Shown piece by piece: positions 17,028 through 37,000 of a stretch of 44,591 bases of DNA; the stretch's first letter is position 1; each line of letters opens with the position of its first letter. The stretch comes from a virus. The stretch lies in IMG/VR virus record IMGVR_UViG_3300037189_015495, positions 1-44,591 of that record; one strand, written 5' to 3'. The notes under the pieces were generated by a model. The model ran no database searches, was not told the DNA's origin, and saw only the letters and a program-made list of their open reading frames with translations. Both the position numbers and the translations under genes were made by a program.

Positions 17028-17278
17028 CGCACGATTTATGTTGCCGTGAAGCTACAGGGCAATCTTATAAAGCGATTGCTGATTGTGTCCTCTCGGCGGA
17101 AGACAGACTGAACAAGGCCGTGCGAGAGCGTATTCCCCGACGAGCGGAGACTAGTGAACTCCATCCGCTCTTAAAAAGATAGGCGAGATATCCGAGACAA
17201 TCGGACGCGAATGCTGGTAAGCACGGGCGCGAAAAGATTCTCACTGCGAGGGCGCATCCCAATGATGACCACCTCGAG

Positions 17279-17303
17279 GCCTTCCCGCATTTAGCGGGGA
17301 GGC
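17279..17303. other. Ten-base-pair hairpin in the control region
   Basis: GCCTTCCCGC and GCGGGGAGGC pair over ten positions (one G-T) around the loop ATTTA. It is not followed by a T-run on either strand, so it is not a standard terminator. Confidence 0.6.
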
Positions 17304-17480
17304 TTCTGCTCAGATCACAAACCCAATAAATGAAAGTTTCTCAATGACCACTTCGAGTCTGCTTATTGAGTAAAGTCACCCGCTGTCACCATACTATCCA
17401 ACAAAACAAAACCCTTTATAGGCCATCCTAGAGCGTTTTTTAGGCATAACTATGTTGTGTCATAAAGAATCTATACCATA

Positions 17481-17544: not shown

Positions 17545-17904
17545 ATGAACAAAAAAACAAAAACGGTGGTTAAATTGCGCGCTTGGCGCGTATTACCTCG
17601 CAGTCGTTACATCGTCGTCTCCGAGGACGGCAAGCGCAACATCTGCAAGGTATACAACGCGCGAGGCGGAAGACTCGAATCAGAGGCTCGCGGGAATGCT
17701 TTGCTGATTGCAAATGCACCCAGAGCCTACAACGCACTCCTACTTCTTCTCAGTGCGCTCAAGCCGACCCTTCGCGGATCAATCGGCTCGCTCGCGTTGG
17801 AGAATGAGGAGTGGCGTGCGCTTAGGCTCGCATGGGTCGACGCGCTGAAATTAGTTAGCGAAACACAAACCGACCCAGTGGGTCAAAAGGAGCAGACAAA
17901 ATGA
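17545..17904 (+). CDS. Unknown protein, first gene of the MoxR-VWA operon (119 aa)
   Basis: A 119-residue protein. The N-terminus is basic (MNKKTKTVVKLRAWRVLPRS) with a beta-rich segment (YIVVSEDGKRNICKVYN). Then comes ARGNALLIANAPRAYNALLL, which resembles the ARLIAxAPELLxAL motif of a widespread family of small phage proteins of unknown function. It ends in a charged helix. It overlaps the next gene by four bases (ATGA). Function is unknown. Confidence 0.65.
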   Translation: MNKKTKTVVKLRAWRVLPRSRYIVVSEDGKRNICKVYNARGGRLESEARGNALLIANAPRAYNALLLLLSALKPTLRGSIGSLALENEEWRALRLAWVDALKLVSETQTDPVGQKEQTK

Positions 17905-18770
17905 ACATCCAGATTAGCGCAGAAAAGCTGAGCCAGTTTGCTCGGCTTGCAGACCTTAGCATCTCCCGCCTCATAGGTGGCCGGCGAGATGATAAGGCGA
18001 CCGAAGAGGTCGAGCGGAAGCATCACATCGAATCTGGCACCGGTGGCAGATTCGTAAAGGCACTGATCAATCCGGTCTATCTCAAGGCCATCAACAAGGC
18101 CTCGAGCCGGATTCGCGAGAACTTCTACAAGTTCACGCTCCCTTGGCACGGGGAACAGCGCGTGCTTCCGGTGTCGGTCTATGACCGGTTCACTGAGATA
18201 CACAACAAGCTGGTCATCGAGTTTGACAAACTCGCGGACGAGTTGGCGGAGAAGTACCAAGAGATCAAGGACGAGGCCAAAGAGAGACTCAACGGTCTTT
18301 ATAGGCCGGACGAATACCCCGAGACATCGAACATCTTTCGGGACAAGTTCGCCGTCAACCTCGACCAGTTCTCATTCCCCCGCGAAACAGACCTCCGTGA
18401 TCCAGTGCTACAGGCTCGGGCGTTGCAGGCTGTGAGTGGAAGGCTCGCCGTTTGCCATGCCAAGCTACTGGATCGCGTGATTGAAAGCCTCCAGAGATTC
18501 TGGGTCACGCTGGACAGGTCGGACGCGATATTCCGCGACTCGCTCGTCGGCAATATCCGCGAGGCACTCGACGAGGCTGATGCCCTCAACTTCACCGGCG
18601 ACAGCCGGATAGCCGAGGCCATCGCGACTGTGCGTGCGGGGCTCAGTGGGCACTTGGATGCCGATCTGCTCCGCGAGAATAAATTTGCCCGCACTGATGC
18701 GGTCAAAAAAAGCAAGGAGGTGCTCGAAACGATCTACTCGTTAAAAAGCACGCTTGGCGTATCTGCTTAG
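17901..18770 (+). CDS. DUF3150-like helical protein, partner of the AAA+ ATPase (289 aa)
   Basis: A 289-residue, mostly helical protein with charged coiled-coil stretches (VIEFDKLADELAEKYQEIKD; VRAGLSGHLDADLLRENKF). DUF3150 proteins encoded beside CobS/MoxR-type ATPases and VWA proteins in phages and plasmids have this size, helical content and gene order, so I suggest that family, but no diagnostic motif is visible and the match is mainly contextual. No catalytic residues or membrane segments are seen. Its stop codon lies inside a CTGCTTAGCAG palindrome and is followed by a folded RNA element before the ATPase gene. Confidence 0.55.
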   Translation: MNIQISAEKLSQFARLADLSISRLIGGRRDDKATEEVERKHHIESGTGGRFVKALINPVYLKAINKASSRIRENFYKFTLPWHGEQRVLPVSVYDRFTEIHNKLVIEFDKLADELAEKYQEIKDEAKERLNGLYRPDEYPETSNIFRDKFAVNLDQFSFPRETDLRDPVLQARALQAVSGRLAVCHAKLLDRVIESLQRFWVTLDRSDAIFRDSLVGNIREALDEADALNFTGDSRIAEAIATVRAGLSGHLDADLLRENKFARTDAVKKSKEVLETIYSLKSTLGVSA

Positions 18771-18773
18771 CAG
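18763..18773. repeat. CTGCTWAGCAG palindrome, copy 3
   Basis: CTGCTTAGCAG contains the TAG stop codon (18768-18770) of the 289-residue gene. Confidence 0.6.
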
Positions 18774-18774
18774 A

Positions 18775-18832
18775 GGATCACAGTCAGCCTCACGGCGACC
18801 CCGTGAGGTTGAAGTGATCCCCGACTACGGGG
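18775..18832 (+). ncRNA. Folded intergenic RNA element between the DUF3150-like and MoxR genes
   Basis: Two perfect nested stems are present: outer GGATCAC (18775-18781) with GTGATCC (18814-18820), inner CCTCACGG (18788-18795) with CCGTGAGG (18801-18808), loop CGACC. A third stem CCCCG/CGGGG (18819-18832, loop ACTA) shares two bases with the outer stem, so the two may exclude each other. No T-run follows, so it is not a standard terminator. The AAGGAGG ribosome site of the ATPase gene lies 20 bases downstream. A role in transcript processing, stability or translation control is possible. Confidence 0.55.
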
Positions 18833-18868
18833 TGCACTAACAAAACAAAAAAAAGGAGGACAGACAAC

Positions 18869-19933
18869 ATGAACAAAATCAGCAACACAACCAACAGCGT
18901 GAAGGTGGGCAAACTCGCGGAGGACTTGTACCTCGCGTTTAAATCCCGCATCTCAACGCTACTCATCGGACGGGCTGGAGTCGGCAAAACCGCTCTGGTT
19001 CAAAGCGCGTGGAAAAAACTCTGCTCAGAGGTCGGTGGCGATCCCATCGTGGTGGTCGACACTCCGGCCTGTAGCGATCCCACAGACTACAAGGGGCTCC
19101 CCGTGGTGCTCGAGGGCAAGGCAACCTTCGACCCCATCGGACTGCTCCGCCGGCTACTCAACGCAACCCAACCCACACTGTGCTTTCTCGATGATCTCGG
19201 GCAGGCCAGTGAGGCCGTGCAAAAGGGGCTCCAGCATATTATCTGGGCTCGCGAGGTAGAGGGCAGGCGCATCCCAGATTGCGTGCAGTTTGTCGGCGCG
19301 ACCAACGCGCGCACAGACCGCGCCGGTGTGGGCTGGCTCATCTCCCCTCTCATCGGGCGGTTTGATGCGACGATTGAAGTACTCCCAGACCTCGAGCACT
19401 GGAGCCAGTGGGCAGTCGAGGCCGGCATCTCCCCACAGGTGCTCTCGTTCCTGCAATTCAGGCCGGACAGGTTCGCGGAAGAACCGACCGCTGAGTTTGC
19501 CAAGAAAGTCGCGTGCCCCCGCTCATGGGAGGCCGTGGACAAGGTGGTCAAGGCCGGACTGGTGTCGCCGGCATGGCTCGCCGGAGCGATTGGGCAGAGC
19601 GCGGGGCTCGACCTGTTCGGGTTCCTCAATGTCTACGATGGGCTCGCTGATCTACCGCATCGCGTGCTCAACGATGGCGAGAAGGCTCCCCTGCCCCAGA
19701 AGCCGGAGGTTCGCTGGGCTTTGACTGGCGCGCTCGTCGCCAAGTTAAACGCGCTGAAACTGCACGGGCACGAGGATGTCGCGAAGAACTTCTTTGCCTA
19801 CATCCCTCGGCTCGGTGGTGAGTTTGAGGCGTTTGCAGTTAAGAGCGCGACCAAGGCCGTGGAGAACTTCACGACTTGGGAAACCTATGGCGACTGGGTC
19901 GAGGAGCGCGGGCAAGTGCTCGTACTCAAATAA
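18869..19933 (+). CDS. MoxR/CobS-type AAA+ ATPase
   Basis: A 354-residue AAA+ ATPase. Walker A is GRAGVGKT (residues 34-41), Walker B CFLDDL (Asp108-Asp109), sensor 1 is in FVGATNARTD (Asn146), and a likely arginine finger is in LIGRFDATIE. Proteins of the MoxR/CobS branch remodel client complexes together with a VWA-domain partner through the metal site of that domain. The partner gene follows after six bases. The ATG is preceded by an AGGAGG site. The client is unknown. Related CobS-like ATPases are known in cyanophages, but no cobalt-chelatase gene is present here. Confidence 0.85.
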   Translation: MNKISNTTNSVKVGKLAEDLYLAFKSRISTLLIGRAGVGKTALVQSAWKKLCSEVGGDPIVVVDTPACSDPTDYKGLPVVLEGKATFDPIGLLRRLLNATQPTLCFLDDLGQASEAVQKGLQHIIWAREVEGRRIPDCVQFVGATNARTDRAGVGWLISPLIGRFDATIEVLPDLEHWSQWAVEAGISPQVLSFLQFRPDRFAEEPTAEFAKKVACPRSWEAVDKVVKAGLVSPAWLAGAIGQSAGLDLFGFLNVYDGLADLPHRVLNDGEKAPLPQKPEVRWALTGALVAKLNALKLHGHEDVAKNFFAYIPRLGGEFEAFAVKSATKAVENFTTWETYGDWVEERGQVLVLK

Positions 19934-19939
19934 GGAAAG

Positions 19940-21241
19940 GTGGTGACCAAAGTGAAGACTAAAAAGAAATCACCCACGCTTGGCCTGACCCCCGCCGAGG
20001 AGAAGCTGTCCAAGGCAAGGATCCACCTAGTGTGCACTGCCCCGTTTTTCGGGTCGGTGGCACTGGGGGTTCCCTGCATCTTAGATGAGCGGGCGAGGAC
20101 TGCATGCACTGACGGCCGTCAAATCCGGTTCGCGCCCAGCTTCCTCGCCAAGCTGGATACGCGACAGGTTGTCGGGCTCATCGTTCACGAGGTGCTCCAC
20201 ATCATCCTGAAGCATTCACTGTTCCGCGAGGATCGTGATCCAAAGCTCTGGAACATCGCGTGCGACTACGCGATCAATCTGATCATAAAGGACGGCGGGT
20301 ACTACCTTCCTACCAACGGATTGATCGACGAGCAGTACCGAGGCCTTTCGGCGTTTCAAATCTACGACCTGTTGGCACAGGACGCTGGCAACACGACGAG
20401 GCCGGACGAGGACGAAGGAGATGAGGGCGAGGGAGATGAGGAGGGCGAAGAGTCAGACGGTGCCGGAGACGGCGAAGAGGAGGGTGAGTCCGATTCGTCC
20501 GCAGCGGGCGGTAAAGGCTCCGGCAAATCTCCGACAGGTTGGGGAGATGTTGAAGACCCAACCGACGAGCAAGGGAATCCCCTTAGCGAGTCCGCCCTTC
20601 AGGAGGTGGCCGATAAGATTGACGGGTCGGTGGCAGTGGCCGAGTCCACAGCGCGCATCGCCGGAAATCTGCCGGCCGAACTTGACCGGATTCTCGGCGA
20701 AGCCAAGAAGCCACTGGTCAACTGGCGCGATGCTCTCAGGAGGCACCTCACTGAGGTCAGTCGCGACGACTGGTCGTGGCGCAGGCCTTCTCGCAGGCAC
20801 CGCAATTTTGTGTTGCCTAGCCTCCACTCCGAGGGGCTGGCGACCATCTTGGTGACGGTCGACACCTCCGGCTCAATTGACAGGGATCAGTTCGAGCAGG
20901 CACTGGGTGAGGTCTGCGAGGTAGCCCAGTCGATCAAGGGAAAAGTTTTCCTCGGATCGTGCGACACTCAGCACTACGGGTTCGAGGAATACAACTACGG
21001 CGATCCCTTGCCGGAACTAAAGGGAGGCGGGGGCACCGACTTCAGAGATTCAGACCGCGCGGTTGAGGACATCATCGCAACCGGTGAGGAGGTGAAGGTT
21101 CACCTGTTTATCACAGACGGGCTGACATCATCTTGGGGGAGCGAGATCGTGCCGACAGTCTGGGCGATCCACAGCGACCCAACTCAAAGCATCGAGCCAC
21201 CGTTTGGTGAGAGGCTCGACATCCCCAGAGGTTCGCCATGA
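19940..21241 (+). CDS. Zincin-VWA fusion, partner of the MoxR ATPase
   Basis: A 433-residue protein with two domains. Residues about 20-145 are a putative metallopeptidase domain (DUF2201 N-terminal type) with HEVLH (His83-Glu84, His87) and the downstream WNIACDYAINLII. Residues 155-185 are a nearly all-acidic linker (DEDEGDEGEGDEEGEESDG). The C-terminal VWA-like domain has a complete metal site: DTSGS (308-312), Thr366 in GGTDF and Asp393 in ITDG. Start codons are a GTG at 19940 or 19943 after AAGGAAAGG; the first is used here. The 3' end overlaps the next gene as ATGA. The pair with the ATPase is a MoxR-VWA system; the substrate is unknown. Confidence 0.82.
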   Translation: MVTKVKTKKKSPTLGLTPAEEKLSKARIHLVCTAPFFGSVALGVPCILDERARTACTDGRQIRFAPSFLAKLDTRQVVGLIVHEVLHIILKHSLFREDRDPKLWNIACDYAINLIIKDGGYYLPTNGLIDEQYRGLSAFQIYDLLAQDAGNTTRPDEDEGDEGEGDEEGEESDGAGDGEEEGESDSSAAGGKGSGKSPTGWGDVEDPTDEQGNPLSESALQEVADKIDGSVAVAESTARIAGNLPAELDRILGEAKKPLVNWRDALRRHLTEVSRDDWSWRRPSRRHRNFVLPSLHSEGLATILVTVDTSGSIDRDQFEQALGEVCEVAQSIKGKVFLGSCDTQHYGFEEYNYGDPLPELKGGGGTDFRDSDRAVEDIIATGEEVKVHLFITDGLTSSWGSEIVPTVWAIHSDPTQSIEPPFGERLDIPRGSP

Positions 21242-21552
21242 TCACCGACCAGAAAAGTCTTGGCCGGCGAGAGATTCGCGCGGGGGTTGCCTTGTTAAAG
21301 GCAATCCACCGCACGGCACCTGAGCGCAACGCCGACACGCTCAGACATCTCAAGTCGTTGAGCGATGCGAAGCTCATCAATTTCGCCACTGATCTACATA
21401 GGCAGTTCTATGTGGATCGTAGCGTACTCATCCCCCACGACACCCAGCACCGACTACAGTCCGCCAAGTCGGAGTTGGAATCGCGGGGGTACAGGCAAGT
21501 AAACACAATCCAGTTCATCTACGATGAACGGGCGGACGCAAGGAGCAAATAA
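21238..21552 (+). CDS. Unknown protein after the zincin-VWA gene (104 aa)
   Basis: A 104-residue helical protein, MITDQKSLGRREIRAGVALL onward, with many charged residues and no cysteine or membrane segment. It overlaps the VWA gene by four bases, so it is translationally coupled to it and could be a dedicated accessory. No family recognised. Confidence 0.6.
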   Translation: MITDQKSLGRREIRAGVALLKAIHRTAPERNADTLRHLKSLSDAKLINFATDLHRQFYVDRSVLIPHDTQHRLQSAKSELESRGYRQVNTIQFIYDERADARSK

Positions 21553-21553
21553 C

Positions 21554-22462
21554 ATGAACAGCACAGTCACAGCAAAAAGCAACGGCACGGCTGGCGTGGC
21601 GAGGGAGAAGAGATCCCCTCGCCCCGTTCCGGAATCCGTGTGGATCAACAAGGCAAACATACAAAAGTACCTACCGCCTGCGAGGGCGAAGCGAGTGCTA
21701 GTCGCGGGTGTGACCGGCACGCTCGTCGGAGACGCGCCACATATCACGGCGACCAGATCGCGCTGGGATCACACCGCCAACAGGCAGTGGGATATCTTTG
21801 AGGCGTGGGCTGAGAAGAAGTGCAACGCCTACCGAATTGAGCGCGGGGACAAATCATCGGCGGGCGATCCCGCCGGCACCGCCCATGTCGGAGACTCACT
21901 GCAACGCATTTTGAAACTGAACGGGGGGCATGGCTCGGCATTCTCCATCGAGCAGGAATCATGCGGACAGGTACTGCGCGAGCATCTGAGCATTCCAATA
22001 CGATGGAGGTTTAACAACGACTCGAGGGCACTGGTGCCCTACTTGATCGAAGAACTTCGGGGGCTTGTCCTCGAGGGCATTGCCGGACTGGAGCACACTG
22101 TGCACGGTTCCGAGAGGCGGAAGTCGCGCGCCACCGTTTTGGCGTTGCGCAAGCTCTTGGGGTTTGAGGACTCGCACAAGTACCCCGACAGCGTGCCCTT
22201 TCAGAAGGAGGCGAAAAGCTACGAGCAAACCCTGCAAGGCTCATGGAAGGACTATAAGGTCACGCGCCATGGGAGTGCCGGCAATTCCTGTGAGTTAATA
22301 TGCACTGGGAATAATAAGCAGGGATTCCGCGCCTCGATCAGCTTCTCATTCCGGCTGGATGACAAGAGGTATCGCGGGAAGAACTCCCACAAGCTGGTGC
22401 AACTATTAGAGCTCGTCGATTCGTTTGTCGGTCGCGGGAGAAAGGAGCTACCCAGTGAGTAA
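21554..22462 (+). CDS. Unknown protein in the MoxR-VWA operon (302 aa)
   Basis: A 302-residue protein of unknown family. The ATG at 21554 (MNSTVTAKSNGTAGVAREKR) has AGGAG eight bases upstream and follows the previous stop by one base; a longer frame from 21524 would overlap that gene. The N-terminal 25 residues are basic and probably disordered. The middle has RSRWDHTANRQWDIFEAWAE and a Gly/His-rich segment (LKLNGGHGSAFSIEQESCG); the C-terminal third is basic and beta-rich (ASISFSFRLDDKRYRGKNSH). No catalytic motif is clear. It could be a target or adaptor of the ATPase pair by position only. Confidence 0.6.
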   Translation: MNSTVTAKSNGTAGVAREKRSPRPVPESVWINKANIQKYLPPARAKRVLVAGVTGTLVGDAPHITATRSRWDHTANRQWDIFEAWAEKKCNAYRIERGDKSSAGDPAGTAHVGDSLQRILKLNGGHGSAFSIEQESCGQVLREHLSIPIRWRFNNDSRALVPYLIEELRGLVLEGIAGLEHTVHGSERRKSRATVLALRKLLGFEDSHKYPDSVPFQKEAKSYEQTLQGSWKDYKVTRHGSAGNSCELICTGNNKQGFRASISFSFRLDDKRYRGKNSHKLVQLLELVDSFVGRGRKELPSE

Positions 22463-22637
22463 GAAAGCACAAAGCGAGGCGAGGCTTTCCATTACCCTGC
22501 CAAAAGAAGTGCTCGGGCAACTCGAGGACATCTGCAATTTGCAGGGCGGTCGAAGCGTTGCCAGTTTAATCCGAGAATGGGTCGGTAGTCGTTGCGGGTT
22601 CGCTCTGGAAGAGCTCCGGAAGTTGGAGGCAAAATGA
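22455..22637 (+). CDS. Ribbon-helix-helix DNA-binding protein (60 aa)
   Basis: A 60-residue protein with a CopG/Arc-like ribbon-helix-helix pattern: beta strand ARLSITLPKEVLGQL, helix LEDICNLQGG, then RSVASLIREWV. Such dimers bind operators. The start is a GTG at 22455, eight bases after AAGGAG, overlapping the previous gene by eight bases. It may regulate its own operon. Arg/Ser at the start of the second helix and the short C-terminal tail are typical. Confidence 0.65.
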   Translation: MSKKAQSEARLSITLPKEVLGQLEDICNLQGGRSVASLIREWVGSRCGFALEELRKLEAK

Positions 22638-22903
22638 GCGTGGTAAACTCAGCCTTTAGCTCGCGAACCGTGAGAAGGAGAGCGAAGAAGACCTACCGAG
22701 AAAGCAACCGCGACTGCCCCTCTCTTGAGCAGTGGCAGTATCTACGGCACATGGTGAAGCGAGGGAGGGACGATGTCCTAGCCAAGTCGATCACCTCGCG
22801 GCACAAGCGCGATGCCCTAGAGGCCTTGGGATCGATTGATGCATGGCTTCAGTCGCGTTTCGGGGTGAGGTTTGAGAGCCGGCTCGACGAGGTGGGGCGA
22901 TGA
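22634..22903 (+). CDS. Unknown basic protein (89 aa)
   Basis: An 89-residue basic helical protein, MSVVNSAFSSRTVRRRAKKT onward. It overlaps the ribbon-helix-helix gene and the next gene as ATGA at both ends. Arg/Lys content (about a quarter) suggests nucleic-acid binding; no family recognised. Confidence 0.6.
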   Translation: MSVVNSAFSSRTVRRRAKKTYRESNRDCPSLEQWQYLRHMVKRGRDDVLAKSITSRHKRDALEALGSIDAWLQSRFGVRFESRLDEVGR

Positions 22904-23073
22904 AGCACTTGATCGATCTCGAAGAGGTAAGGACTCACACCCTTGTGGCGGTTGGGGTGGCCATTGGTCTGGCAATCTCGCTAGCCCTTGTGCTTATCTC
23001 ATCTGCTACGCAGTTGGCGGAGCGGTCTATCCTAGAATCGAAAATCAGAATCGGCGAATCGGCGAGACGCTAG
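22900..23073 (+). CDS. Small single-span membrane protein (57 aa)
   Basis: A 57-residue protein: charged N-terminus (MKHLIDLEEVRTHT), one transmembrane segment at about residues 15-35 (LVAVGVAIGLAISLALVLIS) and a charged C-terminal helix. Its start overlaps the previous stop (ATGA), which supports translation. It ends the plus-strand operon and overlaps the convergent minus gene by 29 bases. A membrane anchor or immunity-type role is possible; nothing in the sequence decides. Confidence 0.6.
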   Translation: MKHLIDLEEVRTHTLVAVGVAIGLAISLALVLISSATQLAERSILESKIRIGESARR

Positions 23074-23599: not shown

Positions 23600-23914
23600 T
23601 CAGACTCGTCGTTTGTTTGATCGTGCCGTTGCACGCGCGGCGGCCGTAATGGGCTTGGTCTTGAAAATGTCTGTGAATATCGGGGTAGACTCGCCAACAT
23701 AGGAGCCAAGGATATTGTAGTTAAAGTATTCCTCGGCTTCCTCGGGGTTCATCTGGTCATTCTCCATCAGCTTGGAAATTATTTTCGCCTTGTCGTAAAC
23801 CACCAAGGGAGGGAGCCCGATCCTGTGCCCAATTCCAATAATGCAATCGTCGTAGTTAGTAACGAGCATCGCCCCCTCGGCAAGCTCTTCGATCTGCTCG
23901 ACAATCGACCTCAC
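23600..23914 (-). CDS. Unknown phage protein (104 aa)
   Basis: A 104-residue protein with a first half that is beta-rich (EGAMLVTNYDDCIIGIGHRI) and a second half with a helical MNPEEAEEYFNYNILGSYVG segment, a pattern seen in small hypothetical proteins of many phages. The C-terminus is basic (ARATARSNKRRV). The start is a GTG at 23912-23914 that overlaps the oxygenase stop (GTGA). No function assigned. Confidence 0.6.
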   Translation of the reverse strand: MRSIVEQIEELAEGAMLVTNYDDCIIGIGHRIGLPPLVVYDKAKIISKLMENDQMNPEEAEEYFNYNILGSYVGESTPIFTDIFKTKPITAAARATARSNKRRV

Positions 23915-24630
23915 CGGAAGTCATCTCCCAGAATCCAAGCCACCGCAACCCAACGCTCGCCCCACCAAGGAGCCCTCGCCCTGTGCGTGAGGAAGCTGGG
24001 GAAAAACACGCCGGCACCCTGCTCCCGCATGTACTTTTTATTATAGATCTTGTCGTACATTTGAAAACCTCCTCCGATATAATCAGTCGGCTTGGACAGG
24101 TTAAAAACTGCGGTGATTTTCCTTTTGCTCCCAACGAATGTGTCCCAGTGCCACGCAAAACGCTGGAATGCCCTGTACCTTAGCACCTGTACCGACTGGA
24201 TATCGTTTAGGCTGAACCGGTAGTTGGCATCGTTAACATTAAACACAGCGGTCAGTATCTTCTGGTACATCCATTCAAGTCGCTCGGTTCTTGGGAGCCA
24301 GACAGCCGAGCATGTTCTCGATAGGCTTGTCTGGGACTTGCCATCCTTGAGCACCGTAGCTCGCTCAAGCTGGGCAACGGTCGCGTCCAGAATAATGGAC
24401 ATGCACTGATTGGGCGTGAAAACATTCGGGAGACAAGTTCCGGCTGTTATGTCCTGCTCAGCAGTTATGCTGGGCGTGAAATTAGTGAAGGCTGGGTGTT
24501 TCACATGGTCAGTTAGCACTGAGGAACAGACAGATCGACCCGTTTGCGGATCTCCCGCAACTCCATGCCCAGCCTTCAAATCGGAAAGTATTACCCGTTG
24601 TTTACTTTGCAAATTATTTTTTTCCTTCAT
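23911..24630 (-). CDS. 2-oxoglutarate/Fe(II) oxygenase, PKHD-type
   Basis: A 239-residue oxygenase. The start is the ATG at 24628-24630 (MKEKNNLQSKQRVILSD), which overlaps the upstream stop as ATGA and has CAGGAG before it; a longer frame from 24783 is ignored. The iron triad is visible: His161 and Asp163 in FAWHWDTF, and His216 in SFLTHRA. Arg226 (WWGERWVAVAW) would bind the 2-oxoglutarate carboxylate. GGGFQMYD and VFFPSFLTH are typical of the PiuC/prolyl-4-hydroxylase-like group common in phages. The target (protein, nucleobase or small molecule) is unknown. The N-terminal 60 residues are an unrecognised extension. Confidence 0.82.
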   Translation of the reverse strand: MKEKNNLQSKQRVILSDLKAGHGVAGDPQTGRSVCSSVLTDHVKHPAFTNFTPSITAEQDITAGTCLPNVFTPNQCMSIILDATVAQLERATVLKDGKSQTSLSRTCSAVWLPRTERLEWMYQKILTAVFNVNDANYRFSLNDIQSVQVLRYRAFQRFAWHWDTFVGSKRKITAVFNLSKPTDYIGGGFQMYDKIYNKKYMREQGAGVFFPSFLTHRARAPWWGERWVAVAWILGDDFR

Positions 24631-24950
24631 TTGTTTTCTCCTGTTATTTGGGCAAGGGCTAAGCAAGCCCGAGCCAATGCATTTCTTGCGTGTATGGCTA
24701 CTGACTCTTGATCCTTTAATTCCACCCCATCCAAAATCATTAATGCTTGGAGGGCGTGTCTGGCCACTCTGGCCAGATGCCATCGCGGGTCTGACTCAAC
24801 GCCCTGATTCCACGATCCGGAGCCGTGCTTCCCGCTGACAAGACTTTCGTCCATCACCTCGATCATTGTTGTGTACGCAATCTCCGCCAACTGCTCGGTG
24901 CTTGGAGTAGTCCTCTCTATGGGTGCGCGGATGCATGTGGTATGGGTCAC
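24627..24950 (-). CDS. Unknown protein, possibly dATP/dGTP-diphosphohydrolase-like (107 aa)
   Basis: A 107-residue helical protein. GKHGSGSWNQGVESDPRWHL, then RHALQALMILDG and HARNALARACLAL, recall the pattern of short phage proteins annotated as dATP/dGTP diphosphohydrolases (DUF5664 type: SW, H..R...H, then A..N.L). The match is loose. The start is a GTG at 24950 overlapping the previous stop (GTGA). If correct, it would lower host dNTP pools or shape nucleotide supply during replication. Confidence 0.5.
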   Translation of the reverse strand: MTHTTCIRAPIERTTPSTEQLAEIAYTTMIEVMDESLVSGKHGSGSWNQGVESDPRWHLARVARHALQALMILDGVELKDQESVAIHARNALARACLALAQITGENK

Positions 24951-29051: not shown

Positions 29052-29321
29052 ATGAAAACAAAAATAACTAAGAACATATCGGGTCACTTGTCCGGTGGTG
29101 CGCTGGCGCACAACATTGGTTTGCGTTGCCCGAAAGACCTCAAGCTGGCCGTCGAGCGGATGGCCAGATTGTTGGACAGGTCGGAGAACTCGATCATATG
29201 TGAATGCGTCATGGCCATAGATGAGATGTCCCGCGCATTGACAGATAGAGATGCAGGGCACATGCCAAAGATGGTGTACTTACTGCGAAGCGCGACTCAG
29301 TACATGGCCTCAAAAGGATAG
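29052..29321 (+). CDS. Ribbon-helix-helix regulator upstream of integrase (89 aa)
   Basis: An 89-residue protein. The ATG at 29052 (MKTKITKNISGHLSGGALAH) is preferred over 29016, which lies within the promoter. Strand NIGLRCPKDLKLAVERMARL, then LDRSENSIICECVMAIDEM, is a ribbon-helix-helix domain. The C-terminal tail (MPKMVYLLRSATQYMASKG) is helical. It precedes integrase by five bases and faces the HTH gene, so it is the best candidate for a lysogeny regulator in the absence of a CI-type repressor. Leader is short and no Shine-Dalgarno sequence is clear. Confidence 0.6.
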   Translation: MKTKITKNISGHLSGGALAHNIGLRCPKDLKLAVERMARLLDRSENSIICECVMAIDEMSRALTDRDAGHMPKMVYLLRSATQYMASKG

Positions 29322-29325
29322 TCAT

Positions 29326-30363
29326 ATGGCGAGTCTTCATAAGGTAAGAGGCAAGTGGTATGTCTTTTACCGGCTATCCGGACAGCAAAAGTGTTTATCT
29401 ACAAAGCAGATAGGCAGAACCCCAAACGCCGTAGCCCGCTCCATTCTGGATAAGTACATCCAGATGGAGGGCGCGGCAAAGCACGGTGTGCCATGGGTAG
29501 ACTCTTCCCAGCCTGTGTCTGCATTGATTGATATGTATTGGCAATCAGCACCTTCCATGGCTCTTTGTACCCATACCAAGAAGGGCGCGCTATTAAATAA
29601 ATTACGAAGATTCATGGGAAAACAGAGCGCAAGTTCTGTAACGGTAATTGATGCCGAGCGGTTTATGAACTTAGGGCTAAATCCCTCATTGGGCGATAGC
29701 ACGAAAGATACATATAAAAACTTCATAGCTTCCCTGTGGGCTTGGGGGATTACCCGAAAGCTCGTTTGTGAGAATCCTTGGAAGGAATTAAAGTACCGTA
29801 GGACTCCAAAGGTTCCTCGCAGATGCTTAACCCAAGAGGAACTAGTAACCCTCTTGACCGGAACCAAGGGGTACATTTTGTTGGCAATATGCTTGGGCTT
29901 TTATCAAGGCGCGCGGATTGGCGACTGCATCGCGCTACATGCCGAGGACATTGATTTTAATAACCGGTTAATAACTTTTCGCCAGCGCAAGGGCAGCAGG
30001 GTCAATGCCCCAAAGTCCCAGACCATGCCGTTACATCCCAAGCTGCAAGAAATCTTGGGAGCGATTCCGCTGGTTTCCGGCAAGAGAGTAATTCCGCTCA
30101 CAGCGTCCGACCTTGGAACTAGGGTTTCCAATGCAATGAGGAAGGTCGGGATAAACGCAACGCATCATTATCTGCGCCACACCTTCATCACCTCGATCAT
30201 TAACAGGCGACAAGGGCTCGCGCAGGCATCAGAGCTTGCCGGACATTCAAGCTGGAACATTACGCGCAAGTACACCCACTTGGCGGTCGAGGAGCTAAGG
30301 CCTGCAATCGAGGCTCACAATAACAATAGCATAACAAGGCCGGTGCCAACCGCTGATCTATAG
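29326..30363 (+). CDS. int: Tyrosine-type site-specific integrase
   Basis: A 345-residue integrase. The ATG at 29326-29328 (MASLHKVRGKWYVFYRLSGQ) has AAGGA eight bases upstream; a longer frame from 29251 overlaps the previous gene. An N-terminal DNA-binding part and a SAM-like core domain (ending near 160) precede the catalytic domain with Arg197 (GARIGD), Lys222 (RQRKGS), His281-Arg284 (HYLRHTF), His307 (LAGHSSW) and Tyr316 (RKYTHLA). It would join attP and attB by strand exchange. The tRNA-end sequence 75 bases past its stop is the likely attP core. Confidence 0.9.
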   Translation: MASLHKVRGKWYVFYRLSGQQKCLSTKQIGRTPNAVARSILDKYIQMEGAAKHGVPWVDSSQPVSALIDMYWQSAPSMALCTHTKKGALLNKLRRFMGKQSASSVTVIDAERFMNLGLNPSLGDSTKDTYKNFIASLWAWGITRKLVCENPWKELKYRRTPKVPRRCLTQEELVTLLTGTKGYILLAICLGFYQGARIGDCIALHAEDIDFNNRLITFRQRKGSRVNAPKSQTMPLHPKLQEILGAIPLVSGKRVIPLTASDLGTRVSNAMRKVGINATHHYLRHTFITSIINRRQGLAQASELAGHSSWNITRKYTHLAVEELRPAIEAHNNNSITRPVPTADL

Positions 30364-30763: not shown

Positions 30764-31001
30764 TGCCGTTGCGTCCCTCTCTCCGTGCCTCGGGGAAGAG
30801 CTTATACCGGATAATCATCGTGGGTATCTTTCGATTGATGAAGACAGGTCAGTATTCATATCAAACCCAACGAACACATACATCGGCGAAGTTGACGATG
30901 ACGGCGACTTTATTGCGCTTGGTCGCAGGGGCGGCACATCGGCTTTCGGATCTACGATGGGCAGGAATTCCGTTATCGTGCTGGAATCGCCCGTCGAATA
31001 G
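30738..31001 (+). CDS. Small secreted protein with signal peptide (87 aa)
   Basis: An 87-residue protein. Residues 1-19 are a typical signal peptide (MKYKLFLAIAVASLSPCLG). The mature part is acidic with beta strands (GYLSIDEDRSVFISNPTNTY). The ATG has TAGGA five bases upstream. It lies beside attP and is on the opposite strand from the late genes, as lysogenic-conversion cargo often is. It overlaps the end of the 2990-residue gene by 29 bases. No family recognised. Confidence 0.5.
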   Translation: MKYKLFLAIAVASLSPCLGEELIPDNHRGYLSIDEDRSVFISNPTNTYIGEVDDDGDFIALGRRGGTSAFGSTMGRNSVIVLESPVE

Positions 31002-34000
31002 CTTCGACATCTGATCTTACCGCCCTGTCTCTGGGATTGTAGGGGGCTACTGTTCCGCTTACTAGAGCCAGCGCGCTTTGCTGGCTTACCCCTTGCTCGC
31101 GGAGGATCTTGAGCACCTCGCCCCTGCTTACGCCAAGTCGCATGGCAGCATTAACTATCCGGCCTGTCTCAAGGAAGATGTCCTTCCGAGAATCCATCAT
31201 GCCCTTGTAGGCATTCAATTTGCCCTCTTCAGTGATCTTGCTCCTGTCGTAGTAGGTCGCAGTAAATACTCCGGTAGCGTCATTGATCCGGTTGTTGAAT
31301 CGTCTGGCCGTGAAAGAGAGCCCCTGCCTTGGATCGAGCGTAACAACCCGCTGCCCCGTAACCACAGCAAGCGTTTCCAAGGCCGGATCATAGGCTCGTC
31401 CGGTCTGGGTAACCTCCCCGCGAAGCCCCTTGTAGATACGCAATCCGGAGGTAACTGTCCCGATGTTGAATGCGTCAAACATATGGGCGGAAATTGCTGC
31501 CGACCGATCAAACAGGCTACCCTCTGGGTTGTATACTCGCCCGCCCGTGGTGCCCTTCTTGTTTCTGGTGATGTCGAGTATCTTGCCGGTGAGAATTTGC
31601 TCTCCGTAAAGCGGCTCAAACCCTGTCTTAACAGCCTCAAGCAATCTCTGTTCCCAGCTACCGTCAGCCTTTGCCAGAGCAATTAACGGGTCGCGGAAGT
31701 AGTTGTATGGGTCGACATACGAAAGGTTGACCTGTTGCACATTGCCCTTGTCATCCCTGCCAAGATACAGCTTCGTCGAATACTTGTCCCATGGCGCATC
31801 TAGCTGCCGGATCGCTCTGTCCTCTTCATCGTCGATGCCCATTGCGGTAGCGATTGCAGAGGCCGCAGCAGTAAATCCTACTGTTGCGACAAGAGATCCA
31901 ACAAGCCTGTAGGCACCGGTCTTGCGGATCTCTGGGTTCTCAGATCTGAGCTCCTCGTTAATGGTGCCAATCAGATTATATCCGGTACGCACCACCTCCA
32001 AAGGGAAGCTGATAAACGACCCTAAGAAGGGTTGCGATCTGAGCGTATTGCCAAGTCTGGGGATGCGGCTGTATGTGGGAAGAAGGTTGAGAACTTTATC
32101 TGCGGCCATGACCTCGAGCCTTGAGGCCGGAGTGCTGGGGAAAGCCCTGCGCAATCTGGCGAGCTCCACCTCAAAGGCGATGACCTTTGGGATCTGATCA
32201 CCTAGCTGGTAGGCACTAGTCGCAACCTTGCCCACGGTTTTAACCGCTCGCATGAGGTAGTTGTCGTAGAAATTGATGGCCGTGTTGACATTCGCGTCCT
32301 TGAAGTAGGACTGCATTTCATTGGCAAAGAATCCCTGCCCAACGATCCCGAGCCTCGACAGCTTCGCGGCGTAGTCCCGCATGGCCTTGTCCCTGCTGAT
32401 GCCGAGCGTTGTGCCAGCCACAGGCAGGGCAAGCTCTCTGAGTTTTTGCAGGGCAATCGCCCCGTCCGGCGAGAAGATGTAGCCGTTTGCAACTAAGAAC
32501 TGCGCGTTGCCAAGGACATTACGCACCTGTGTTTGAACCGATAGCACGGTCTTGGCGAACTTGGATATGCCGTTGGCCTTTAGATAGAACTCGCCCAGCT
32601 TCTGGATGGCACTCTCGGGGCGCGATCTTCCGCCAAAGGTGTAGCGGAGAGCGTCAGCAATCTCCTCGCTTGTGTAGATTTCGTTGCGCATCCCCTCAAC
32701 AAACATGTTCAATGGGCTCGCTGTTCTGCTGCCATCTGTAACGATGCGGGTAGAGAAGCCCTGTCTTGGCGTGCTAAAGAAAATTTTATTCATGCCAGCG
32801 TCCTTCATGTCTCGCAGCATTTGGTGAGTCTCCAAGAATGCAGCCATCCTCTGAACCGAATTAAGGATGTTTACCCGTGGGTCTTTGATCTCGCCCCATA
32901 GTTGCCGGATCTCGGCGGGGATCTCTTTTCTCGGCGTAACTATAGACAGGTCTTTGGTCAGGCCACTTCCCAATAGCCCAAAAGGGCTATCTTCCGGAGA
33001 GGCCAGATAGTCTATGTACCCCCTGATCTCGCTCTTGGTTATACCGCTATTCTTGGCCTTGCTCAGGCCGGCCTGAAAGTCTGCCATAAACGCCGGCGAC
33101 TTGGGGTCGATCCCGCTCTCGCCTCTGGCTAGGCTCTGCTCTTTTGCGTATGCATTTGCGTACTTAGTCTCCATCCAGCTTTTGACGGTAGACTCAATCT
33201 TGTTCTTCACCTCCTTGGGCAGGGTGTCGAATGGGTTCTTATAGTTTGGGTTCTCCCACTTCTCATATGCGCGCGTAACATAGACCCCCTTGTTGGCCTC
33301 AAAAACTGGTATCAAATGTTCCGGCACTGCGCCGATCCTGACCATCTCGGATGTCAGGCTATCAATTAAATTCCTCGCGTTGCCCACGGCTGCCGCGATC
33401 TGTGGAGCCATCCGGACACGAACCGCAGGATTCGAGAGGGCTTCATTCAGCCTCTGAACCTCCTTGTCATCCAGCTTGGACATCGGCTTTCCGGTCGCTG
33501 CCTTCACAGCGGCCTCGAGATCTGTAACCGCATTGTTCGCCCTCATCATCTTCTCGTTAATTCTAAACCCACGCTGCTCTCCGATCCTAAAGATGTCGTT
33601 GGGGAGGGCTCCGCCAGTCCTCAGTTGCTGCCTGCCAAATGAAATTAAGGGCTCCAGAAGGCGTTGGGCTTGCTCGCCTCGAGTGGATGCAGCTACCGAT
33701 GGATCAAGATTTATTGAGCTCTCGCCCCGAGTTGAGGCCTGCACCTCTGGTGGGGCGCGAGAACCACCCTGCCCTGTCGCCTCGTCCATGCTTGGACGCT
33801 GGTCAGAAACATCCACGATGGTGGCAGCTTGCGGCTTGCTGAAGCCGGCCAAATCATACGAAGCATCCATAATGCTTTCGAGCATGTTGCTGTCTGTCGA
33901 AAGCCCAAGAAGCTCTCTGATGGCATCGACCAACGATTGCCATAAAGACTTATTCTGACCATCGCCCTTGAGGGTCTTTAGTACGGCCTGAGCGTTTGCG

Positions 34001-37000
34001 CTGCTAAACGCCGCAGCTATAAACTCATCCAGATTTCCAAGTCCGTAATCGCCACCACGAAACATTGTCGTGTCCGCATTGGAACTAGCCAAGGGCTTGT
34101 TCTTTGTAATCTTAGAAAAGTCTTCGGACTCATCAACAATCACAAGTCTTTGTGGCTCGTCGATGTCCTCCATGCTTTTTAGGTCAACTCTTGTTATTGA
34201 CCCGAAATCAACATCGCGGTTGGTGGCATAGCCAAGCAGGGTCTTTATATACTGAATTGGCTCAACGCCCTGCGGGATCATGGACTTTGGAACCACTGCG
34301 GAGGCTTGATCTCGCTGGTAAGAATTGGTTGCAAAAACAGTTCCGGTGACAGATCGAACAAAATTTGCCAAATCAGAAATTTTTGAGTTAATGCCTTCGA
34401 GGGCTCCACCCTTCTGCCGGCGACGATCCCCGATCCGCCTCCCGTCATCCCGATAGGATGGCCTGAATTCAATCCCCCGCATATCACGGAAGCTCTGCTC
34501 CGTAGGAAGATATGCCCTTGCCCTTACGGTGTATTTGCTGCCCTCATCCCTAATCTCAATTCCAAACTTGGGGTTGTTTTCACTTTTTGTCTGGAACCCC
34601 TTTAGGTAGAAGCCGTCAAGATTAAGCTGCTTTAGCGTGCTCTTATATAGCTCGATAAGTCTTACTATCTTGGGGTCTTTTTTGTCGCCCTTTAGGTATT
34701 TCTCCAATGCCTTATTGTACGGGATTGGTGTCATCCTATTGGATTTTTCGGTAGCGAAATCATACGCCCTTAAAAAACTTATCTTGTCGGTCGTGAGGCT
34801 GTGAGCCGTTTCGTGCACTACGGTTGTGAATTCTGCCCCTCTTGAAGAATACCCAATATAGCCAAGACTTGATCTGTATGCCCTACGCTTGTCGCTTATC
34901 TTTATGGCTTCCTTTGTCAGCTTATTAGTCGCCTCCGTATTGCTGGTGTATTTGTCGGCATCAATAATGCTTTGGGCGATAATCCTGCCATACTTCTCGT
35001 CAATCCTTGGTTTGTGAGCTCCGCTTGCTACGGCATTGTCATAGAACTCAACGGCGCGCTTCAAGCTGGCAAGCGCATTCAGTGGCGATGACTTGGGGTT
35101 CTCTCCGCCAAGCACGCTGGCCGGAATATTTAGATCGGGATTTTGGTCGACCGATTTATTAAACACCTGAAACGGGAGCGGGTAGAAGCTCTGCTCGCCT
35201 CTCCTGCTTAACTCAACGCCGCTCTCGGGGGCGGTGGAAGGACTTGCTACATCATCGGCTGTCGGAACTGAATCGGAAGGGACGCTTGGTACTCTGCGCT
35301 CAACTCGTCCTCCCGCTTCCTGTCCGGCCAATCCAGATCCAAATAGTTCTCCCGTGTTAGCGGAATTTTGTTGAGGATCATATACTCCAGAGTCGGAAAC
35401 TGCCCAGCTAGGCTTTTCAATTCCTCCAGCGATGCTGGAGATTCGCCGCCTTGTGTTGTCTGCGGTTGCTTCACCATTTGAATACTCCTTCCATGTGTCG
35501 TTTATTAAAGCCTTATTTTTCGCATTTTTAAATGTGGGCTTGAACAGACCCCTGACCGCTTCCCAAGTAATGCTCTGCATCTCTCGGGGTAAGACACCCC
35601 GCTCGGCAGCCGCATTCCTGTAGGCATCCGCATAAACTCCATACATACCAGACACCCCAGTCAGGCTTGAGGATGGAGCACCGACCCCAAGAGCCTGCCC
35701 AACCTCGAAGTCATTGCCGGAAAGGGGGCGCAATAAGCCTGCTGCTACTGCGTGCGTGTCAATTGTTACATCCCCGAAGTCAGATAGGTTAGGAAGAAGG
35801 ATGTTGTTGTAGAAATTTCTTACCTTGTGCTCACCACCAAGAATCTTACTGATGTTCTCTCTGCTCCCATTCTCGAGTACGCTCACCCCCTTGGCGATAA
35901 ATCCAAACGAAGTCCAAGCTGTCTTTGCGTCCTCTCCGGCTTTGGTCTTAAACTTTCCTAGCCTGCTGCCTTCCGGAGAGTAGGCGTAGTAGGATCTGTC
36001 ATTGTTGGTTTGGTCATAAACCCTGATGAAGATAGCTTTTTCAAAGTTGCTGGTTAGCTGCGCGTAGGTCTTGCCAAGAGAATTTTTTACAGTCCGATAC
36101 TGGAATGGCTTTAGGATTTTTCTGGCCTCCTTCATCATCGCCTCGGTAAACGGCTTGTCCTTGGCTTTGGTGTGTATGTCAATCAGACGCTCGGCCATTG
36201 TCAGATTAACAAACCAGTTGGCTCTTGGAGATAGGGACGCGATAACGGCCGCTACTTGCGGAGTCGTATAGCCATACTTAGAAGCCCACTCGTCGGCAAT
36301 CTTTCTGCCACCCTGATACCACTGCTTAGCCCGCTCCCTTAGATTAGGGTCGTAAGAATCATACAAGTACAGGAGGTTGGCCTTAATGTGATTCGAGAAG
36401 TCTTTAATTACATCCTCGTCTGTCTTGGCCTCCGTCTTCCAGCCTATGTATCTCCTAAAATAATCCGCCTGTTTTGCAGCTAGATTCTTGTCTGACAGGA
36501 TGGCATCCAAACCGATAACGAGATCAGAGCTAAGGCCGTCCTCAGATTTCTTTACGGCATTGGGAATTCGCTGACTTACCCAGAAGCCAAGATCCCCACG
36601 CTCTTTGGGGCTAAGATTGAGGGATCTGGAACCCCTCGCGGAAGCTGCTACTTCTGGCGACCCCTCTTGCGGTACGCTTTGCGCCCGATTGTCTTCTCCT
36701 GCTTGGTTGTTAGCTGGTCGGATGGTTCGTCCAATGCGGTCTGCCGCTGTCCGAAAACTCCCTTTTCGTCCAGCGATGTAATCAATTTGTCCACCCAACT
36801 CTTGTAGTCTTCCCCTGTCGTTGGGCGAGTAAACGCCACCGGCTCGTAGTTGGCTGATGCCTTCTGCTGTGTCGATTGCGACCCCAGCGGAGATGTCGAA
36901 AATTGCTTCCTGCTCTCCATTTTCAGCAAGGTACAAAGCGTCTTCTTTTTTGTCGAGAATAAAGGACATGTCTATGACAAGCGGCTGCTGGTCTTGCGGG

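Follow-up and report, generated by a model that had tools for sequence, protein, structure and literature searches.

A conserved trio of an AAA+ ATPase, a zincin-VWA protein and a DUF3150-related protein in a phage operon, on plasmids and in bacterial genomes

Introduction

There are nine plus-strand open reading frames (ORFs) in the operon discussed here, which occupies positions 17545-23073 of the viral record IMGVR_UViG_3300037189_015495 of IMG/VR (positions 1 to 44,591; this whole stretch of 44,591 nucleotides is referred to as the window). At its centre lie three genes (Table 1), which encode an AAA+ ATPase, putatively of the MoxR type, a protein in which a zincin domain is fused to a VWA domain, and a protein of 289 amino acids (aa) distantly related to the DUF3150 family. 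A sequence-only reading of the window had listed nine plus-strand genes, all of which are present with the boundaries given there, and had proposed that the ATPase, the zincin-VWA protein and the DUF3150-like partner form a true module; linkage and co-inheritance of the three genes bear this out.

The three core proteins

The ATPase matches phrog_1297 (E 2e-47) and the Pfam family AAA_5, and we provisionally name it MoxR-type on the basis of the AAA_5 match and the annotation of its relatives. The motifs of both proteins are present and conserved across 60-70 homologues, namely Walker A (GRAGVGKT), Walker B (CFLDD), sensor-1 (N146), IVHEVLHIILKH and the metal ion-dependent adhesion site (MIDAS; DTSGS...GGGGT...TD), so that the intact Walker motifs, VWA metal site and HEVLH zincin fusion of the sequence-only reading are confirmed. 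Among 60 ATPase homologues, the Walker lysine K40 is kept in 59 and the Walker B residue D108 in 57, and the sensor asparagine and R218 are nearly invariant.

In the 433-aa zincin-VWA protein, Pfam identifies PF13203 (DUF2201_N, a putative metallopeptidase) at residues 20-294 (E 6e-52) and PF09967 (the DUF2201 VWA domain) at residues 304-428 (E 2e-10); there is a match to DUF2201 and none to CobT. The HExxHxxxxH and MIDAS residues (H83, E84, H87, H92, D308, S310, S312, T366 and D393) are invariant in 70 of 70 homologues, across which the fusion is also identical in architecture, with no swapping of effectors. The VWA domain is the last domain of the window protein, and no variable effector domain follows it. 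The protein is widespread, with matches in 500 phage records (tblastn, E 1e-5). PHROGs names phrog_1314 'HNH endonuclease', and the same label is carried by many phage records. We reject this label, as no HNH match was found in the window protein with Pfam at E values up to 1.

The 289-aa protein itself matches no Pfam family. Its relatives match DUF3150 (PF11348) at E ~1e-4 with 20-22 bits, below the Pfam cut-off of 24.9, and a profile of 18 relatives aligns by hhalign with nine Pfam-positive DUF3150 proteins over 147 columns (probability 97.2, E 3e-11). The AlphaFold model is confident (mean predicted local distance difference test score, pLDDT, 89), and by Foldseek it resembles a phage protein annotated as DUF3150 with a template modelling (TM) score of 0.85. 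Taken together, the relatives below the cut-off, the profile match and the fold match therefore establish the 289-aa protein as a distant relative of DUF3150, and not as a formal member. Sequence searches of solved structures gave no convincing relative, and structural comparison with the PDB gave only generic helical-bundle matches, which we do not take as relatives (no Foldseek E value below 0.001; VIA-align Z scores of at most 10.7, for the ~100-120 residues at the C terminus).

Among 369 genomes of a single class (Gammaproteobacteria by GTDB), nine encode Pfam-positive DUF3150 proteins, whose genes adjoin those of an AAA_5 ATPase, a CobT-type VWA protein or both. DUF3150 therefore looks like a recurring companion of two kinds of MoxR-vWA pair. 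An apparent DUF3150-VWA gene fusion in one locus (L047) was not relied on, since the near-identical locus L056 carries two separate genes and the fusion is likely a frameshift or sequencing error.

Linkage and co-inheritance

Linkage was counted in 80 viral loci, which were found through the VWA protein, and in 80 bacterial loci. According to the sequence-only reading, the module idea would fail if the homologues occurred without linkage to one another; this was examined, and the module stands. The ATPase and VWA genes lie on one strand in 77 of the 80 viral loci, the other three being cut at contig ends, and in 75 of the 80 bacterial loci, where the exceptions lie near contig ends. A DUF3150-like gene is found in 30/80 viral and 59/80 bacterial loci. 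On five plasmids examined, the pair is present in all five and the trio in four. Gene order varies between DUF-AAA-VWA, AAA-DUF-VWA and AAA-VWA-DUF, and the linkage persists throughout.

The pairwise distances among the three proteins are correlated (r 0.88-0.91; permutation maxima 0.16-0.18). These correlations show co-inheritance and not contact, because shared descent alone contributes to them. In a tree of the VWA protein, the window falls into a clade of seven phage sequences with the trio (Shimodaira-Hasegawa-like approximate likelihood ratio test, SH-aLRT, 96). Viral and cellular sequences interleave in this tree, which fits an exchange among phages and other elements. The core of the operon is the trio, and its remaining genes are lineage-specific, since these accessory genes are limited to the phage lineage or to its closest relatives.

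The operon in its phage

The genome is complete at 44.5 kb, its last 87 bases being identical to its first 87 (an 87-bp end repeat). It encodes a small terminase, a weakly matched large terminase, a head-tail adaptor or portal-type protein, a capsid protein and an endolysin, as well as a DnaB helicase, RusA and exonuclease cluster, an integrase and a virion protein of 2990 aa. On the strength of the complete genome, the integrase and this set of phage genes, the window is most likely a temperate phage.

The operon is a fixed part of the phage lineage. In the relatives L003, L004/L173, L006/L007, L008 and L178 it lies between the same phage genes as in the window, flanked at one end by the small terminase gene and at the other by a 2-oxoglutarate (2OG) oxygenase gene together with DnaB where the contig reaches; it is therefore neither a chance cluster nor a recently acquired cassette. 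A chance cluster of ORFs is further rejected on account of lineage conservation and purifying selection, the ratio of nonsynonymous to synonymous substitutions (dN/dS) against L003 being 0.06-0.25 for all nine genes. Recent acquisition had been hinted at by the higher G+C content of the operon (57.9% versus 50.8% for the remainder), and is rejected as the relatives have the same flanking genes. The claim that most of the genes are joined by ATGA overlaps was slightly generous: the overlaps are real, but occur at four of the eight junctions (17901, 21238, 22634 and 22900). There is a gap of 98 nucleotides upstream of the ATPase gene and one of 6 nucleotides upstream of the VWA gene. The operon lies apart from the structural genes, and the late genes next to it are on the other strand. 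A sigma-70 scan upstream of it found no promoter.

Table 1. Operon genes, candidate RNA elements and further genes of the window.
Feature	Positions	Strand	Remarks
Candidate structured RNA	17078-17330	+	between small terminase gene and operon; conserved in 11 related phage sequences
g1, 119 aa	17545-17904	+	closest relatives only (L003, L182); weak phrog_1273
DUF3150-related third partner, 289 aa	17901-18770	+	alpha/beta N-terminal half and C-terminal helical bundle
Hairpin leader element	about 18768-18830	+	5' of ATPase gene; GATCAC...GTGATC with varying, covarying inner stem
AAA+ ATPase, 354 aa	18869-19933	+	AAA_5 / MoxR-like; phrog_1297; homologue of N4 gp24
Zincin (DUF2201_N, HEVLH) fused to VWA with MIDAS, 433 aa	19940-21241	+	phrog_1314; homologue of N4 gp25
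g5, 104 aa	21238-21552	+	also in L004/L005
g6, 302 aa (312 from ORF opening 21524)	21554-22462	+	conserved in this phage lineage only
Ribbon-helix-helix (RHH) protein, 70 aa	22425-22637	+	TTG start, uncertain
g8, 89 aa (103 from 22592)	22634-22903	+	conserved in lineage
g9, 57 aa	22900-23073	+	one hydrophobic stretch; conserved in lineage
2OG-Fe(II) oxygenase	23911-24783	-	adjoins operon
Integrase	29251-30363	+	
2990-aa virion protein	30973-39945	-	

Among the accessory genes, g6, g8 and g9 persist across the lineage, and g1 and the RHH gene are shared with the closest relatives only; L006 carries a different RHH-like gene. The RHH protein is likely a regulator. The AlphaFold model of g6 is of low confidence (pLDDT 60), and the 89-aa start of g8 is supported by homologues. 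The 2OG-Fe(II) oxygenase gene next to the operon is kept in the relatives examined on that side. The 2990-aa virion protein, which occurs in the same phage as the integrase, gives a weak local match (E 1.5e-7) with the virion RNA polymerase family of N4.

Two conserved candidate RNA elements accompany the operon. The hairpin leader precedes the DUF3150-like gene in relatives (L004, 3815; L178, 6700) and is possibly a cis-regulatory RNA. In the alignment of the second candidate, 95.6% of cells are paired and compensatory change is seen in 27 cells, as against 8.1 in shuffles; the signal collapses in a sliding control, and the plus strand folds better (-49.3 versus -34.1 kcal/mol). This candidate matched no Rfam family, and when viral contigs were scanned with a strict pattern, 13 stretches contained it, mostly contigs of this lineage.

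Comparison with known systems

The closest counterparts are gp24 and gp25 of phage N4, homologues of the window ATPase (E 1.5e-89) and VWA protein (E 1.5e-88), respectively. In N4 and in the group 2.2 jumbo-phage pair, the domain fusion, the linkage and the key residues are as in the window (Iyer et al., 2021, PMC7824862). Both genes count among the 14 that form the core of N4-like phages, and in N4 they are transcribed as middle genes (PMC4193335). N4 differs in that no DUF3150-like gene could be detected in the part of its genome that was examined, whereas in the window lineage the third gene is fixed upstream of the ATPase gene.

The Gammaproteobacterial AAA-DUF3150-VWA genes are alike in that a DUF3150 protein adjoins an AAA_5 and/or a VWA partner, with a distant profile relation to the window protein. 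They differ in that their VWA partner is of the CobT type and lacks the DUF2201 zincin, and the sequence relation between the DUF3150 proteins is remote. The common logic of a MoxR motor and a vWA adaptor extends to RavA-ViaA, CbbQO and CobST, which have different partners. To our knowledge, there is no zincin in the vWA proteins of these three systems.

In MoxR systems the vWA partner holds a client, which the MoxR ring remodels at the expense of ATP (PMC7159879). The MoxR-vWA ternary systems (VMAP and others) likewise comprise a MoxR ATPase, a vWA partner and a third conserved gene, and VMAP systems share the order third-MoxR-vWA with the window (Kaur et al., 2020, PMC7159879). By contrast, Pfam found neither a VMAP, iSTAND, FtsH or propeller component in the window operon nor a variable C-terminal effector. 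DUF3150 is mentioned in no paper of the literature searched. As far as this literature shows, the third partner and the three-gene form with DUF3150 are an undescribed variant of a system whose two-gene heart is already known.

Function

We favour, with a probability of about one in two, a reading in which the core is a three-protein, ATP-driven machine of mobile elements for the remodelling or proteolysis of proteins, acting before virion assembly in the early-to-middle phase. The MoxR-type protein would form the motor ring, as its family suggests. The VWA domain, with its conserved motif, would bind the client or the ring through a metal site and hand the client to the fused zincin, which would then cut or trim it. 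From its linkage and co-inheritance, the DUF3150-related protein would be a third subunit, acting most probably as a scaffold or as an adaptor for the client. The target may be a DNA replication, recombination or transcription complex, or else a host protein; the trio would not be part of the virion, and the remaining operon genes would be accessories of the lineage.

Action before assembly is suggested because the trio has its own operon, which runs opposite to the late genes, and because the N4 counterparts belong to the middle class. It is favoured also by recurrent neighbours with roles in replication and recombination and by RNase H genes: homologous loci contain a Dda helicase and a DNA polymerase gene, a DNA polymerase gene in another case, and an RNase H gene between the AAA and VWA genes in a further one, and RNase H, Gp157 and RadC genes are found beside bacterial loci. 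In the window phage, the DnaB, RusA and exonuclease cluster is of this kind. The conserved neighbours in the bacterial loci do not indicate a single function. On the plasmids L085 and L086, PRTRC genes are located a few kilobases away from the trio, which in L086 is directly upstream of a type IV secretion operon.

Several points weigh against this reading. About 60% of the viral pairs have no detectable DUF3150-like gene, the zinc site could be structural, and the literature searched holds no experiment on any zincin-VWA/DUF3150 system. Neighbours are a weak guide to the target, since phages place early genes side by side even if these are unrelated, and type IV secretion genes adjoin some of the plasmid copies, suggesting a role in machine assembly. 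Two further points favour a link to the virion: the ATPase of phage PA5oct is flagged with electrospray ionisation tandem mass spectrometry (ESI-MS/MS) in its record, and in N4-like roseophages a second structural module adjoins the gp24/gp25 homologues (PMC4193335).

These last two points keep alive a rival explanation, in which the pair is a virion-assembly chaperone and processing protease that folds, assembles or trims structural proteins; a possible client in the window phage is the 2990-aa virion protein with its weak N4-type similarity. For jumbo phages, the MoxR/metallopeptidase-vWA pair has been described as a chaperone and co-chaperone, and virion assembly with peptide processing was proposed, with a precedent, lacking the peptidase domain, in the archaeal virus ATV (Iyer et al., 2021, PMC7824862). 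However, the trio is also found on conjugative plasmids and in bacterial genomes, so that virion assembly is not its general function, which leaves room for such a role in phages; moreover, the N4 homologues are middle and not late genes, and in the window the structural genes lie away from the operon and in the opposite orientation. We consider this explanation unlikely.

The sequence-only reading had suggested early host takeover, anti-defence or superinfection, for which no result was obtained in support. Here the zincin would cleave, or the ATPase dismantle, a host defence or regulatory protein. This would fit an early or middle operon common to phages and plasmids, and vWA-MoxR modules with peptidases are known from conflict systems (PMC7159879, PMC12839542). 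PADLOC gave no meaningful match for the eight operon genes scanned, however, and the architecture is not diversified, with an invariant zincin. The dN/dS ratios are low, unlike those of typical arms-race genes, and a place in the core of N4-like phages suggests a role of a general kind. Counter-defence is accordingly improbable.

Maturation of a metal- or cofactor-containing enzyme, as by CbbQO or CobST, would accord with DUF3150 as a link to AAA_5/CbbQ and CobT-type partners, but is very improbable, given that the scanned window proteins include no CobT, CobN or cofactor-synthesis protein and the VWA protein matches DUF2201 instead. The earlier view that a cobalamin role is unlikely thus holds for the operon, with the caveat that Pfam-positive DUF3150 proteins elsewhere do adjoin CobT-type VWA proteins.

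Returning to the remodelling machine, a broader and more tentative proposal is that the DUF3150 family may provide a general third subunit of MoxR-vWA machines on mobile DNA, of both zincin-vWA and CobT-vWA types. It would then belong to an undescribed AAA+ protease or remodeller serving phages, plasmids and integrative elements alike in some step common to all of them, which may concern a complex for replication or recombination.

Implications

The core pair of N4-like phages is widespread and has no known function, and its VWA protein is misnamed by the PHROGs label. A recurrent third partner, common to plasmids and chromosomes, defines a complex to purify and makes the job of the pair testable, and N4 in Escherichia coli K-12 is a tractable phage in which the pair may be knocked out.

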